From: Verrucomicrobiaceae bacterium
GTDB taxonomy: Bacteria > Verrucomicrobiota > Verrucomicrobiia > Verrucomicrobiales > Akkermansiaceae
Direction: 5' to 3'
Length of the DNA stretch: 64,000 bases
Assembly: GCA_027491155.1 (NCBI GenBank)
Contig: JAIXWR010000043.1
Location: 62,001 to 126,000 of the forward strand
The notes beneath the pieces are model-generated. The model ran no database searches. It was given only the letters and a program-made list of their open reading frames with translations, and had not been told where the DNA came from. Both the position numbers and the translations under genes were made by a program. This document shows positions 30,088-36,700 of this stretch, in pieces. How positions within the stretch are numbered: position 1 is the stretch's first letter; the number at the start of each line of letters is the position of its first letter.

Positions 30088-32913
30088 TCAGATCACGGAA
30101 AACACCTTCATCACCTCGTCGCCGAGGTGGTTGATCACCTTCACCGCGATGCGGCCGGTGTTGGGCTTGGGGAAGGCGCGGGAGGTGTCGCTGTTGAGCG
30201 AAGACCATGCTTCCTCGTCGATCTCCGCCTTCAGGGTGGTGCGGAGCTGCTTGTAGGGATCGTTCTGGCCCAGGAAGTAGGCGTGGCGGACGAAGAAGCT
30301 CTCCTCGTTGTAGTCGGTGTCGATGAACCAGCAGGCGATGCCGTCCGGGCCGTCGCTGCGGACCTCGCCGGTCTGCGGGTGGAAGACGTCCACGCCGTTG
30401 ACCTTCACCTTCACCTCGCCATCGGGCTGCGGGAGGATGCTGATGTCCGGCTCGCCGAAGATGACGAAGAGGTTGCCCTTGCCGGTGGTCTTCAGCTCGC
30501 CGGCCATGTGGAGGTCGGCGTTCATGCGGGCCTTGAGCACCGGGATGCGGCCGAGCTTTTCGAACTCGGCGCTGTGGGCATCGTAGGAAAAGGCGCAGAC
30601 GATCAGGACGTCGAAGCCGGCGTCCCCGGCCTCGCGGGCGGCGGCGACCAGGTCGGCGCGGGAGACGGTGCCGAATTCCGGGCCGATAAAGATCCCGGCG
30701 CGGCGGACCGTCTCGCCTTCCGCGTAGTGGCCCTCCGCGCAGATCAGCTCGCCCGGCCAGGGCAGCAGGGAGCTGAAGGAAATGCGGTCTTCCTTGTGCG
30801 CCTGCTGCACGCCGGCGGCGCGGAGGTTGTCCAGGATCACGGTGGCGAAGTCCTGCTGCTTGGCCGCGGGCTCTTCCGCCAGCTTGGTCCAGGTGTCGAT
30901 CAACTCGTTCTCCGCGCCGACGGTCAGGACGCGGTGCGGGGAGATCGACTCCACGGTGAAGGGCCCCGCCACGCGGACGCACTTCTTGTTCTCGTAGGGC
31001 TTGTCGTAGAGGTATTCGGAGTCGGCCTTGGCGGCGATGGACGCGTCGATCTCCTGCTGGCGGGCGATCCGGAGCTTCCAGAACTCTTCCAGCAAGGGCT
31101 TCGCGGCCGCCGGCCAATCCTTCGGCAATTCGCGGGGAATCTCCCACTCTTCCAAAGTCTTCTTGGGGTTTCTGGTTTCTGAAATCTTCACTCTGAGCGG
31201 CGCGAGCTGCTCCTCCCACTTGTCCCAGATCACGTCGATCTCCGCGTTGTTGGCGATCGACTTTAGGGTGATGTGCGGCACCCGCTCATAGACGAAGCCG
31301 TGGCGGATGTTCCCGTGGACCGGCTGGCTGCTCGGCACGCCGCGGGTGATCTCGGCTTCCTTGAGCTGCCCCTCGCGGGAATCCGCCAGAAGGTAGAACG
31401 GATAGCGCGCCCCCATGATCCGGGCCCGGGCCAAGGCCAGCGCGACCCGCGAGGTGTCGATGGTGATCCAGCGCCGGCCCCACTGCTCGGCAACCGTCGC
31501 CGTGGTGCCGGAGCCGCAGGTCGGATCGAGCACGAGGTCGCCGGGGTCGGTGGCCATGAGGAGGCAGCGGGCGACAATTTTTGCGTTCGTCTGAACTACA
31601 TAAACTTTCTCGGTTGTGAACGATCCGGTTCCAACATCAGTCCAAACGTCGTTGATCGGAGCAGCATTGAAGTCTGCCCACTTCCGCAAGTATTGGAGTG
31701 ATTCATTCCGGGTTAGATACAGTCGACCAGCAGCTCTCAGCCTTGCCATTCCTACCGGATTTGTTTTCCAGCCCCCTTTGCCAGGGGTGATCTCGCGGCC
31801 ACGATATTGCACCTTAAATGTCGCGCTATCTGGCGAGCTTTGGCTCGTGAGATTGTCTGGCCGAAAAAGACTCGCACCTTCAGGGAGAGACGAAGCTCCA
31901 CTCAGCTCATCCGCGCTACCGTTCCGGTCCTCCCCTGACAGTAGGATCACACGGCGGTAAAGATCGGCGGTTTGCATGTCGCCTTTCTCAAAGTAGATCT
32001 GCCGATACTTGATCGACTCCTTCCGCTTAGCAAACCAGATCACGTAGTCATGCACACCTGCTAGCGTGACAGTACCACCGGTTGGGCTCCCTGCGCCGCT
32101 GGTCGTCTTCAACACGATCTCGCAGACACAGTTCTCCTCCCCGAAAACCTCATCCATCACCGCCCGGACCCGGTGGACATTCTCATCGCCGATCTGCACG
32201 AAGATCGAGCCGGAGTCCGTCAGCAGGTCGCGGGCGACGGTGAGGCGGTCGCGGAGGTAGGTGAGGTAGCTGTGGATGCCGTCGCGCCAGGTGTCGCGGA
32301 AGGCTTTGACCTGCTCCGGCTCGCGGGTGATGTGGGCGAGGTTGCCGTCCTTCACGTCGCGGCTGGTGGTGGACCACTGGAAGTTGCTGTTGAATTTGAT
32401 GCCGTAGGGCGGGTCGAAGTAGATGCACTGGACCTTGCCGCGCAGGCCCTCGCGCTCTGCGAGGCTGGCCATGACCTGGAGGGAATCGCCGAGGATCATG
32501 CGGTTGGACCAGTTCTGGTCGTGGCGGTAGAACTCGGTCTTGTCCGCGCCCTTGGGGATGCCGTTGAAGTCGGCGAAGAGGTCCGGGGTGAGGTTGCCGG
32601 CATCGTGCTGCTTCTCCTTGGTCCGCCGCAGCAGGTCGTCGATCAAGGCCTTCGGGTGGACCTTTTCCTGGATGTAGAGCGGCGGCGCCTGGACCACGAG
32701 GTCGCTGCCGTCCTGCTCGTCCTTGCCGCGCCAGACGAGCTGGGGATCGAGGTCGGTGTTCCGCGGGTATCTCACGGGCCGCGCCGCGGCATCGTCCTTC
32801 GAGACGACGGACTGGTGCTCGGCGGTGGGGATGTTCTTCCGCTTCGCCTCCTCGTGCTTGAGGGTCGCGACCTGCTTGGCCGTGGGGTATTTGACGCTTT
32901 TCTTGGCGGGCAT
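30088..32913 (-). CDS. mod: type III restriction-modification system methyltransferase (Mod)
   Basis: 941-aa N6-adenine or N4-cytosine methyltransferase that provides target recognition for the system. Motif order is beta class: catalytic DPPY at 167-170, then a long variable region, then the SAM-binding motif DPTCGSGTT at 463-471. The variable region, about residues 270-440 (31596-32106), is the expected target-recognition domain and has about 50-53% G+C on lines I counted, against about 70% beside it. The C-terminal 450 residues probably interact with Res. The start is 12 bases downstream of a 5-copy octanucleotide repeat, with no ribosome site visible. The order of the operon is res, ORF6N genes, mod. 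Confidence 0.92.
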   Translation of the reverse strand: MPAKKSVKYPTAKQVATLKHEEAKRKNIPTAEHQSVVSKDDAAARPVRYPRNTDLDPQLVWRGKDEQDGSDLVVQAPPLYIQEKVHPKALIDDLLRRTKEKQHDAGNLTPDLFADFNGIPKGADKTEFYRHDQNWSNRMILGDSLQVMASLAEREGLRGKVQCIYFDPPYGIKFNSNFQWSTTSRDVKDGNLAHITREPEQVKAFRDTWRDGIHSYLTYLRDRLTVARDLLTDSGSIFVQIGDENVHRVRAVMDEVFGEENCVCEIVLKTTSGAGSPTGGTVTLAGVHDYVIWFAKRKESIKYRQIYFEKGDMQTADLYRRVILLSGEDRNGSADELSGASSLPEGASLFRPDNLTSQSSPDSATFKVQYRGREITPGKGGWKTNPVGMARLRAAGRLYLTRNESLQYLRKWADFNAAPINDVWTDVGTGSFTTEKVYVVQTNAKIVARCLLMATDPGDLVLDPTCGSGTTATVAEQWGRRWITIDTSRVALALARARIMGARYPFYLLADSREGQLKEAEITRGVPSSQPVHGNIRHGFVYERVPHITLKSIANNAEIDVIWDKWEEQLAPLRVKISETRNPKKTLEEWEIPRELPKDWPAAAKPLLEEFWKLRIARQQEIDASIAAKADSEYLYDKPYENKKCVRVAGPFTVESISPHRVLTVGAENELIDTWTKLAEEPAAKQQDFATVILDNLRAAGVQQAHKEDRISFSSLLPWPGELICAEGHYAEGETVRRAGIFIGPEFGTVSRADLVAAAREAGDAGFDVLIVCAFSYDAHSAEFEKLGRIPVLKARMNADLHMAGELKTTGKGNLFVIFGEPDISILPQPDGEVKVKVNGVDVFHPQTGEVRSDGPDGIACWFIDTDYNEESFFVRHAYFLGQNDPYKQLRTTLKAEIDEEAWSSLNSDTSRAFPKPNTGRIAVKVINHLGDEVMKVFSVI

Positions 32914-32925
32914 GGGGAAGGAATG

Positions 32926-32965
32926 GAGATTGGGAGATTGGGAGATTGGGAGATTGGGGGATTGG
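32926..32965. repeat. octanucleotide tandem repeat just upstream of mod
   Basis: Four perfect copies and one near-perfect copy of GAGATTGG (plus strand; CCAATCTC in the mod sense) between the ORF6N stop and the mod ATG. The run ends 12 bases from the start codon and occupies the place where a ribosome site would be. The unit length is not a multiple of three. Confidence 0.9.
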
Positions 32966-32969
32966 GGCG

Positions 32970-33536
32970 TCAGGGCTTGCGGCGGGGGGCCTTTTTCGCG
33001 GGCTTCGGCTTCGGGAGGGTGTGGAAACCCATCTCGCGGGCCGGCTTGGCGGGAGGGACCATGAGCTGGCGGATGGCATCGAAAACGATGCGGAACTGGC
33101 CGTCGTATTTCTTTTCCAATTCCCTGATCTCGCGGGCGAGTTCGCGGTTGGAATCCATGAGGCGGCGGAGCTGGACGAAGGTCCGCATGATGGCGATGTT
33201 CACCTCCACGGCTCGCTGGGACCGGAGCACGCTGGAAAGCATGGCGACGCCCTGCTCGGTGAAGGCGTAGGGGAGGTAGCGGCGGCCCCGGTGTTTCCCG
33301 GAACTCATCACAATTTGTGATGAGTTCAAGGCGTCCATTTCTTCCGCGGTGATCTGGAACATGAAGTCGGCGGGGAAGCGGCTGATGTTGCGTTTGACCG
33401 CCTGGTTCAGGACGCGTGCCTCGACCCCGTAAAGACTGGCGAGATCGGAATCGAGCATGACCTTTTCATGACGGATCCAGTGGACCATCGGGGCGATGGC
33501 TTCCGGGGAAATGAGAACGGGATCGTGCTTCTTCAT
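32970..33536 (-). CDS. ORF6N-domain protein
   Basis: 188-aa predicted DNA-binding protein of the ORF6N (KilA-N-related) type common on phages and in defence islands. The domain runs from about 15 to 105: RHEKVMLDSDLASLYGVE, VLNQAVKRNISRFPADFMFQ and RRYLPYAFTEQGVAMLSSVL. A predicted helical region (110-160) and a basic Lys/Pro/Arg tail follow. The ATG at 33536 overlaps the stop of the preceding short gene as ATGA, so translation is probably coupled. It lies between res and mod. A perfect 11-bp hairpin is embedded in codons for SSQIVMSS. An auxiliary or regulatory role in the restriction system is likely but not shown. Confidence 0.85.
   Translation of the reverse strand: MKKHDPVLISPEAIAPMVHWIRHEKVMLDSDLASLYGVEARVLNQAVKRNISRFPADFMFQITAEEMDALNSSQIVMSSGKHRGRRYLPYAFTEQGVAMLSSVLRSQRAVEVNIAIMRTFVQLRRLMDSNRELAREIRELEKKYDGQFRIVFDAIRQLMVPPAKPAREMGFHTLPKPKPAKKAPRRKP
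33301..33327. repeat. in-frame palindrome 1 (ORF6N gene)
   Basis: Perfect 11-bp arms GAACTCATCAC and GTGATGAGTTC around AATTT, encoding the SSQIVMSS segment. It shares the core TCAC-N5-GTGA with the two palindromes of the adjacent short gene (the third with CAC/GTG preceded by GGT). Confidence 0.9.
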
Positions 33537-33742
33537 GGCATGGTGACGGTAAACTCGACCGTTCGGTCGCCGCGGAAAATGTTCGGAAGCATGGCAACCC
33601 CTTGTTCCGTAAAGTCCGTCGGGCGGTTGCCTCCGGGCTTGGCGGGGCCTGGTATCACGTTTTGTGATACCAGGATTTGGGAACCGGTCACAGTTCGTGA
33701 CCGGTTGAACTCTGATGCAAGGCTGAGGGCAGGACTTTTCAT
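33533..33742 (-). CDS. short ORF6N-like reading frame, probable decayed paralogue
   Basis: 69 codons. The last 25 residues (FTEQGVAMLPNIFRGDRTVE) align with FTEQGVAMLSSVLRSQRAVE of the intact neighbour; the N-terminal half of the ORF6N domain is missing. Its middle contains two tandem in-frame hairpins coding NRSRTVTGS and LVSQNVIPG. The start overlaps the res stop as ATGA and its stop overlaps the next start as ATGA. Both junctions carry CCATGCCATGA, which suggests that a whole ORF6N gene was duplicated and the first copy then shortened. It may still be translated as a coupling peptide, or it may be a pseudogene. Confidence 0.6.
   Translation of the reverse strand: MKSPALSLASEFNRSRTVTGSQILVSQNVIPGPAKPGGNRPTDFTEQGVAMLPNIFRGDRTVEFTVTMP
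33648..33674. repeat. in-frame palindrome 2 (short ORF6N-like frame)
   Basis: Perfect 11-bp arms CCTGGTATCAC and GTGATACCAGG around GTTTT. The outer arm sequence differs from palindrome 1 on both sides in a complementary way. Confidence 0.9.
33682..33706. repeat. in-frame palindrome 3 (short ORF6N-like frame)
   Basis: Perfect 10-bp arms AACCGGTCAC and GTGACCGGTT around AGTTC, 7 bases from palindrome 2 and in the same codon phase. No T run follows any of the three, so they are not simple terminators. Confidence 0.9.
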
Positions 33743-36700
33743 GGCATGGCGTTGGAGTCCTGAATGATCGGGCCGAGAATGCCGTGGATGTGCCTTTCAA
33801 CGGCGGCCTTGAAGTCCGCCTCGATCTGGAAGACCTCCTTGAACTCGACGAAGTCCCAGCGGCCGAAGGACTGGAGGCGGTTCACACCGGGGACCCAGAA
33901 ATTGCGCATGGTGGTGGCCTTGTCCTGCGCGTCCTCGCCGCGGTAGCCCTTGATCTCGATGACCAGGTGGAGCGGATCGTCCGGGCCGTGGCCGTCATCG
34001 ATCAGGGCGATGAAGTCGGGGAGGTATTTCCGGTTCTGGGAGGCCATCCGGTAGGGAACCTCCAGGCCGAGGCCCTGGTTCTTCACGTAGGCGAGGACCT
34101 TCGGGTGATCCTCCAGCACGCGACAGCACTCGGCTTCCCAATCGCTGTCGGTGACGACGTAATTGACGTGGCAGCGCTCGGGATCGGTGGTCCACAGGTC
34201 CTTGGAGGAATTGAAGGCCACGTGGCGGGAGGATCCGCGGGGATTGTACGGGTCCAGCATCACCTTGATCACGCCCTCGCCGCCCGCCTGCTCGCTGGTC
34301 CCCTTGACGATCGCGGAGTGGATGCGGTCGCAAGCCCAGCCGGCGATTTCCTGATAGAGGACCTGGGCGGGGAAGGTGTTGCCGGTGCAGCGGAGGCAGG
34401 TGTCCAGCCATTCGCCGGCGATCACCTTGAGCTGGCCGAAGAGATGCAGCGGCGGCTCCTCGCCGGCGTCGCGGTATTTCTCGTAGAGGAGATGCTTCAC
34501 CAACTCGAACAGGATGGTGGCGCGGCGGGTGGACGCGAGGTGCTCCACGGTGAGGTTCACGCTTTCGCCGATGATCCCGCTGTTCTTGGTGATCGAGGGA
34601 CCGACGATATCCGGGGTGAGGGTGAGGACGTGGTCTTGCTCGAACTTGGCAAGCAGCCGCCGGTCCGGAAGCTCGCTGCGATAGCCGGCCACGCGGGGAA
34701 AGGTGATCTCCAGATGATCCCGCTCCGGACGGACGGCATGGACCCGCTCGGTTTTCTTCGGCGGCTTCGGCGGCGCGACGACGGGCTTCGCGGTGAAGTC
34801 GAAGGGAATCCCGAGGATATCGGCATACTCGACGTCGAAGCGGTTCTCGGCGTTCAACTCGTAGGACTGGCGTCGGAGTCCCCGGCCGACGACCTGCTCG
34901 CAAAGGAGCTGGGTGCCGAAGGCGCGGACGCCGAGGATGTGGGTCACGGTATTCGCGTCCCAGCCCTCCGTGAGCATTGAGACGGAGACCACGCAGCGGA
35001 CCTCGCCGCCGAGCTTCCCTTTCTTGCCGACGGTGTTCATGACCTCCCGCAGCAGGTCCTGGTCGGTGAGGTTGTCGGCGGCGTGGGGATCCCGGGCCCG
35101 CTCGATCACTTCGCGGCGGAAGAGTTCCAGCTCGTCCGAGGCGACCTCGCGGAAGTTCTTGTCGAGCGCTTCCCCGGACTCGAGCTGGTGGCTGTCGATC
35201 AGCAAGGTGTTCGGCTTGGCGAGCCGGTTGCCGCTTTGGTCGTGGTTGGTGAAAAGCGGGAGGCGTGCCGCATGGAAGGCCTGGGTCGGCTTGCCGTCTT
35301 CCGTCCGGTGGAAGCCGGAGATGAAGTCATAGACGAGCTTCGAAGTGGAGGTGTTGTTGCAGACGACGATGAAGACCGGCGGGGTCGAGATGCCGCGCTC
35401 CCGCCAGGCATCGAAGGTCTTCACGTAGTGACCGTAGAGGGCGAAAAGGGCGGTCTGGAGAAGTGGTGGCAGGCTGAGCGGATCGGGTGGGATCGGGTTT
35501 TTCCCGGCACCCTTCTTCGGCAGGCTTTGCCCCGCCTCCTTGAGATTGTTCCAGAGGTCGCGGAGCTTGGGCATCTCGCCACCAGGAACATTGTCGGCGA
35601 TCGGGACGCGCGGGAGTTTCACGATACCGCACTCGATGGCATCCATCAGCGAGAAGTCGCTCATGACCCAAGGGAACAGCGCGCCTTCCCGATAGCCGGA
35701 ACCGGCGAGGAAAAAGGGCGTGGCGGAGAGGTCGTAAACGGTGCGGACCCCGAGTTTGCGCTTCACCGCCTCGATCCCCGAGATCCAGAGGCGGGCGGCT
35801 TCATTGTCCTTCTTGGCCTGCTCCTTGGCTTCCTTCAGCGCATCCCCGGTGAGCTTCTCGCCCTTGTCATCGACAAACGAATCGTCGCTGAGGGGCTTCT
35901 GGCGGTAGCAGTGATGCGCTTCGTCGTTGAGAACGAGGATGTTCTTGATGCCCATCAGCTCCGGCATCACGCGCTTGATCATCTGCCCTTCGGTCTCCCG
36001 GGTCTGGAGGTCGGGTCCCCTGCCCTTCAGAAACGCGCGGCCGGTCGCGGAGAGGCTGAGCCGTTCACGGAGCTTGAAGGCGTGATAATTGGTGATGACG
36101 ATCCGGGCCTTGTCGAGCGACGGCAGATATTCATCCGGGACCAGCTCGCGGTTCTTGTAGTAGCTCTCGGAATCGTTCGGAAGCAGGATACGGAGGCGGT
36201 CCTTGATGGTGATGCCGGGAGCAATGAGGAGAAAGCCCTTCGTGAACGTTTTGCTCGCGGGGTAGCGGACGGCATTGATCACCTGCCACGCGATGAGCAT
36301 GGCCATGACGGTGGTCTTGCCCGCGCCGGTGGCCAGCTTGAGGGCGATGCGGAACAGCTCCGGATTCGCTTCCTCGTTGGAGTTCTTCAGCCATTCCAGG
36401 AATTTCTTGGCCCGCTGCCCCTGCTGCGGAGCGACTTCGGCAAGCCAGATGGCGGTTTCGACCGCCTCGATCTGGCAGAAGAAGGGCCGGACGCCGGAAA
36501 AGGGGTGATGCCGCCAGTGGAGGAGAAGGCGGGCGGTCTCCGGCGTCACCTGCCACTGGCTCTGCGGAAGGCCGCGCCACTGGTCCACGAACTGCCGGAG
36601 TTCATTGACGATGGGAGTCGGATCATACTCGTCGCCCGCGGTGGAGATCCCCTCCTTGTCGACAAGCGCCATTTCGGCCTGCTCCTTGGCCGCCTTCTTT

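Follow-up and report, generated by a model that had tools for sequence, protein, structure and literature searches.

The question raised by this locus is whether an octanucleotide array immediately upstream of a type III DNA methyltransferase gene (mod) acts as a methylation switch, as had been proposed from the sequence alone, or whether another reading accounts better for it. By running TRF on the window, that is the whole 64-kb stretch of DNA analysed here, we found a tandem array on the minus strand at 32925-32966, with period 8, unit GGAGATTG, 5.2 copies and 97% match, which reads CCCAATCC(CCCAATCT)4CC in the sense of mod. Its score of 77 was the highest among the 34 tandem-repeat rows of the window. 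In a 1.4-Mb order-3 Markov control of the genome's composition, the best score for any period was 72, and the two arrays with a period of at most 12 and at least 3 copies each scored 47. These data confirm the five-copy octanucleotide array described in the sequence-only reading. The array is separated by 3 bases from the ORF6N stop codon (32970-32972) and by 11 bases from the mod ATG (32911-32913); the 12 bases given earlier hold for the borders used in that reading, and 11 for those of TRF. The gap of 56 bases between this stop codon and the mod ATG is almost wholly occupied by the array, which belongs to the short-unit (7-8 nt) intergenic tandem arrays lying close upstream of a start codon.

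The minus-strand order at the locus is res (36852-33739), an ORF6N-domain gene (33536-32970), the array and mod (32913-30088). First, mod encodes a 941-aa type III DNA methyltransferase with DPPY and DPTCGSGTT motifs (PF01555, 2.4e-31; PADLOC MTase_III, 1386 bits), and these profile matches together with the sequence bear out the earlier statement that the array adjoins a type III mod, which is intact. Second, mod is accompanied by a res partner, encoding a type III-like restriction subunit of 1037 aa from the BPTD_3080 family (NF046055, 1282.5 bits for a cut-off of 800; PF04851). Third, the gene in the res/mod interval encodes 188 aa (PF10543, 1.6e-31 on the longer ORF 32970-33800), and its protein matches the candidate defence family PDC-S05 (PADLOC, 1.4e-56). 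The minus-strand spacer between res and ORF6N (33537-33738) also carries a degenerate piece of ORF6N (FTEQGVAMLPNIFRGDRTVEFTVTM; 40% over 47 aa by tblastn, E 1e-8), a trace of past gain or loss of the ORF6N cargo gene.

The position of the array, after the ORF6N stop codon and before the only mod start, excludes phase variation by frame shift, whether of mod itself or of a fusion between ORF6N and mod. Upstream of its ATG, the mod frame is open for 184 more codons, in which ATG, GTG and TTG are absent; the sole, odd start alternative would be a CTG at 20 codons from the ATG. The octamer unit contains no stop codon in any frame, but translation would pass through it only if this CTG served as a start. 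With the array outside both frames, a change in copy number would alter only the ORF6N-mod spacing and not the reading frame, a point on which the sequence-only reading was right. In a phasevarion, the simple repeat sits within the reading frame of mod, which is not the case for this array.

A contingency locus could still work through spacing: slippage would shift the distance between the ORF6N stop codon and the mod ATG, varying Mod level or coupling, so that methylation differs between cells. The spacer of 56 nt, changing in steps of 8, would lend itself to such an effect. Since Res needs Mod in type III systems, loss of Mod should do no harm. There are also precedents, as 7-bp non-coding repeats tune transcription of hmw1A and hmw2A in Haemophilus (PMC2424069) and the leader of Moraxella uspA2 holds AGAT repeats (PMC4679880). 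However, the array at mod is short, with 5 units against 9-28 in the hmw arrays, and its distribution, described below, also speaks against this reading.

We therefore compared about 80 mod orthologues from many phyla (62-80% identical), in which the gap between res and mod is often 2-10 bp and otherwise reaches up to ~2 kb. The octamer array was not found in the leader of any of these orthologues, and quasi-repeats were seen in none of 72 mod leaders from other phyla. The closest comparison comes from a genome of the same genus (G006), whose mod is 84.5% identical over the first 213 aa and follows res after a plain spacer of ~56 bp; neither ORF6N nor the array is present there, and DNA similarity between G006 and the window picks up again 8 nt before the mod ATG. 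The mod of a contig named Akkermansiaceae (L039, 73%) is preceded by a different repeat, the heptamer CACTGAT x3.4. Being missing from mod orthologues, including that of the same genus, the array was rejected as a conserved component of the restriction-modification system, and the lack of such an array in other mod leaders also counts against a contingency locus. As a separate observation, many BPTD_3080-type systems (L037-L116) have ~0.6-2 kb of extra DNA separating res and mod, with ORF6N as the cargo in three of them (L051, L080 and L113).

The same octamer recurs elsewhere in the genome. Besides the window, GGAGATTGGGAGATTG sites lie at C38:90174-90232 (7.4 copies) and at the contig starts of C10 and C16, and these two starts look like a single array split by the assembly. 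The array on C38 ends 6 bp before glmS (SIS and glutamine amidotransferase domains). Arrays with other units behave alike, with AATCTCCT x4 placed 5 bp before ffh (SRP54), ATCTTCC x5 placed 3 bp before a BPD_transp_2 permease gene and TCAACCA x3.1 placed 14 bp before a transglutaminase gene. Leader arrays thus front unrelated genes, essential ones included: studied bacteria cannot do without glmS or ffh, and on/off switching of either should be lethal. For this reason, leader arrays cannot serve generally as on/off switches. Together with the mod orthologues that lack the array, these arrays 3-6 bp before glmS, ffh and the permease gene undermine the idea of a special link between the array and either mod or switching, and a contingency locus at mod has to contend with the same kind of array before two essential genes. 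Two other accounts of the octamer were tried and rejected. It is not common as single copies, since arrays account for most of the sites at which it occurs between genes in the genome sample; and spread as a mobile element found no backing in the array flanks, which have no obvious shared sequence when compared by eye, unaligned. Tandem arrays of 6-10 nt also stand at 12 of 92 contig ends (C3, C10, C14, C15, C16, C19, C20, C21, C27, C31, C39 and C41), and ten of these ends can be paired by unit, which suggests that about five arrays were too long to be assembled.

To see how widespread such leaders are, we used a genome sample of ~2.05 Mb out of 5.73 Mb, read as stretches, with genes and starts predicted by our own codon-score caller. 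Periods of 7, 8 and 9 nt were enriched in leaders (z of 4.2, 5.9 and 5.4, respectively), and no enrichment of these periods was seen after convergent stops in the sample. Strong 7-8 nt quasi-repeats occurred in 26 of 482 co-directional leaders (5.4%; 22 of 322 in gaps of at most 150 bp), in 5 of 286 divergent leaders and in 1 of 95 convergent gaps, the rates in shuffles being 0.85%, 0.52% and 0.11%, respectively (0.5-0.9% overall range for co-directional leaders). With periods of 6-9 nt, 17 of 771 leaders were positive versus 9 of 2313 shuffled ones (P 1.5e-5). The families include CCCAATCT, ATCAACC, CATCTGC, GTCTTGC, ACTTGGA/C and GATCACT, and leaders with motifs of such families numbered 106 for the sense and 35 for the antisense orientation, the families having been picked from these counted leaders themselves. 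Arrays of 7-8 nt are rare within coding DNA. A cruder ORF caller gave 14 of 250 leaders with quasi-repeats versus 1 of 102 in other phyla (P 0.077); with a simple caller, the difference from other phyla is thus weak and needs a larger sample. We also noticed that, among intergenic 8-mers, enrichment was strongest for AGTTCCAA/TTGGAACT, seen 58 times for 6.6 expected and part of the ACTTGGA/C leader family.

Sister species show the same habit with other units. Quasi-repeats were present in 11 of 31 glmS and ffh leaders from other members of the genus versus 0.4 expected, a count for which the two genes were chosen because our genome has arrays there and from which its own copies were excluded. 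The units at these orthologous leaders differ (ATCTACC, AATTAGT, ATTTCAA and others). Likewise, for pbp, which was picked from a random list and whose start was reassigned after its conservation had been seen, the leaders at the conserved start carry CATCTGC in our genome, AATCGAC in G010 and G006, and GTCTTGA in G008. The glmS proteins of our genome and G010 are 99% identical, and their leaders, both of the CCCAATCT family, have 7.4 perfect copies and ~4 degenerate copies, respectively; copy number therefore changes between species. Such differences at orthologous glmS leaders count in favour of a contingency locus. No repeats were found in the recN leaders (L320-L336). Most members of the genus keep a TTGACT/TTGATT...GCATCATGC-like promoter upstream of recN, a few tens of bases away from the start, so the recN leader should be very short. 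Tandem quasi-repeats of 7-8 nt before start codons are thus genus-wide, with units turning over between species. A literature search found no report of leader repeats of this kind in Verrucomicrobiota, although this leaves their absence unproven.

Could the array be a neutral microsatellite, slippage debris retained because an intergenic spacer tolerates 8-bp insertions and deletions, with expression unaffected? The variation of unit families between species at orthologous leaders would fit, as would the rarity of 7-8 nt arrays in coding DNA, where steps of 8 bp shift the frame, and the similar arrays that break the assembly at contig ends. However, neutral slippage would also need biased seeds, since the arrays are strand-biased and concentrated in co-directional leaders over convergent and divergent gaps. 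We consider this explanation rather unlikely for the array at mod.

The composition of leaders in this genome bears directly on what the array might do. In the genome sample, a Shine-Dalgarno (SD) core (GGAG, GAGG, AGGA or AAGG) was present in 10.9% of leaders compared to 13.3% in shuffles, and CCTCC is kept at the 16S 3' end (16S rRNA L277). Akkermansia was previously reported to be SD-scarce with a conserved CCUCC (PMC10783764). Among the ATG genes of the sample, 63% have C at position -1 and 52% have it at -2; from -10 to -1, the sense strand has 44% C and 23% G, compared to 32-33% each in convergent tails. The stretch between the array and the mod ATG (32914-32924, minus strand) is ATTCCTTCCCC, C/T-rich and without an SD core. 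The claim that the array replaces the ribosome-binding region is thus wrong: positions -11 to -1 lie outside the array, and no SD site was displaced at mod because this genome hardly uses SD sites. The mod leader ATTCCTTCCCC|ATG is ordinary for this genome.

We then predicted the accessibility of the mod start on the mRNA. The mean unpaired probability from -15 to +15 was 0.89-0.95 for 1-9 units, and a base-shuffled array gave 0.92, which indicates that accessibility stems from composition and not from the repeat itself. An RNA hairpin switch was rejected as unlikely on the same prediction of an unpaired start region at 1-9 units. Since predicted accessibility is nearly constant over this range of copies, switching by copy number finds no support either. 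This prediction is the last of the points against a contingency locus, which we judge improbable. Another use of the repeat would be on the DNA: the plus strand of the array, antisense to mod, is (GGGAGATT)n and G-rich, and matches the G-quadruplex pattern G3+N1-7 with five G-tracts, so that it could fold on the template and modulate ORF6N-mod transcription. Its placement resembles that of the GGGNATC repeats of Xanthomonas and Nostoc, antisense, at most 50 bp upstream of an ORF and between aligned ORFs (PMC4692102). However, most other leader families (ATCAACC, GTCTTGC, ACTTGGA and AATCGAC among them) miss the G-quadruplex pattern; G-quadruplex formation can therefore not be the common purpose of these leaders, and we hold it to be very improbable at mod as well.

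Taking all our observations together, the array at mod is probably a slippage-born, copy-tolerant and unstructured leader, with at most a graded tuning of Mod and not an on/off switch. It would be the 5' leader of mod within the res-ORF6N-mod gene row, having expanded from an octamer by slipped-strand duplication, within the short non-coding spacer where ORF6N separates res and mod. With little G and much C and T on the sense strand, the mRNA around the ATG is predicted to be unpaired, which might provide a landing strip for ribosomes in an SD-poor genome; contact with a protein like ribosomal protein S1 is our guess. Gain or loss of an 8-bp unit would alter the spacer length only and would mostly be tolerated, with mild, graded effects on Mod at most; a graded tuning of the hmw1A kind may apply. 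As a counterpoint, switching of Mod would be tolerated, and the array at mod could have a use that those at glmS and ffh do not have. In a broader and more doubtful version, slippage would continually rewrite the leaders of many genes within gene rows into 7-8 nt quasi-repeats with ever-new units across this SD-poor genus, and these would be retained because a ribosome or an RNA-binding protein reads the periodic G-poor pattern instead of one sequence, the array at mod being one case.

What had been presumed to be a methylation switch therefore points to a genome-wide habit of fast-evolving tandem-repeat leaders before start codons, and warns that a repeat beside a mod gene is not sufficient to call phase variation. 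For the study of how bacteria that keep an anti-Shine-Dalgarno sequence and scarcely use it choose their start codons, orthologous genes under different repeat units offer a natural set of variants.

The unit GGGAGATT is neither TAACTGA nor GGGNATC, the units of two of the closest known systems. The TAACTGA repeats of Beggiatoaceae and some Cyanobacteria (MacGregor 2015, PMC4679880) are heptamer arrays that, as here, end a few nucleotides before start codons and front essential genes; they replace SD sites, and binding by S1 or Csp was proposed for them. In contrast to their single fixed unit, there are many unit families in one genome here, orthologous leaders in sister species differ in unit, and SD sites are few overall. 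The GGGNATC / GGGGA(C/T)T repeats of Xanthomonas and Nostoc (Rehm 2015, PMC4692102) share with the array at mod a G-rich intergenic unit, antisense and less than 50 bp from an ORF. As here, they lie between aligned ORFs and before metabolic genes, and phase variation was judged unlikely for them; they are heptamers, whereas the array at mod is an octamer with few loci in the genome, among neighbouring leader repeats that are mostly not G-rich.

The 7-bp repeats of hmw1A and hmw2A in Haemophilus influenzae (PMC2424069) are likewise non-coding and upstream, with a possible role as a copy-number rheostat. However, they lie in promoters with 9-28 copies and a measured effect, while the array at mod has 5 copies within a gene row. 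Phase-variable type III mods (Haemophilus modA, Mycoplasma mycoides MmyCI and Streptococcus suis) have, as here, a simple repeat at a type III mod. In all of them, the repeats are inside the mod frame and shift it, those of MmyCI being AG repeats within the coding region (PMC3498834). Thus, phase-variable type III mods carry their repeat inside the frame, whereas the array described here lies outside it, in the leader.
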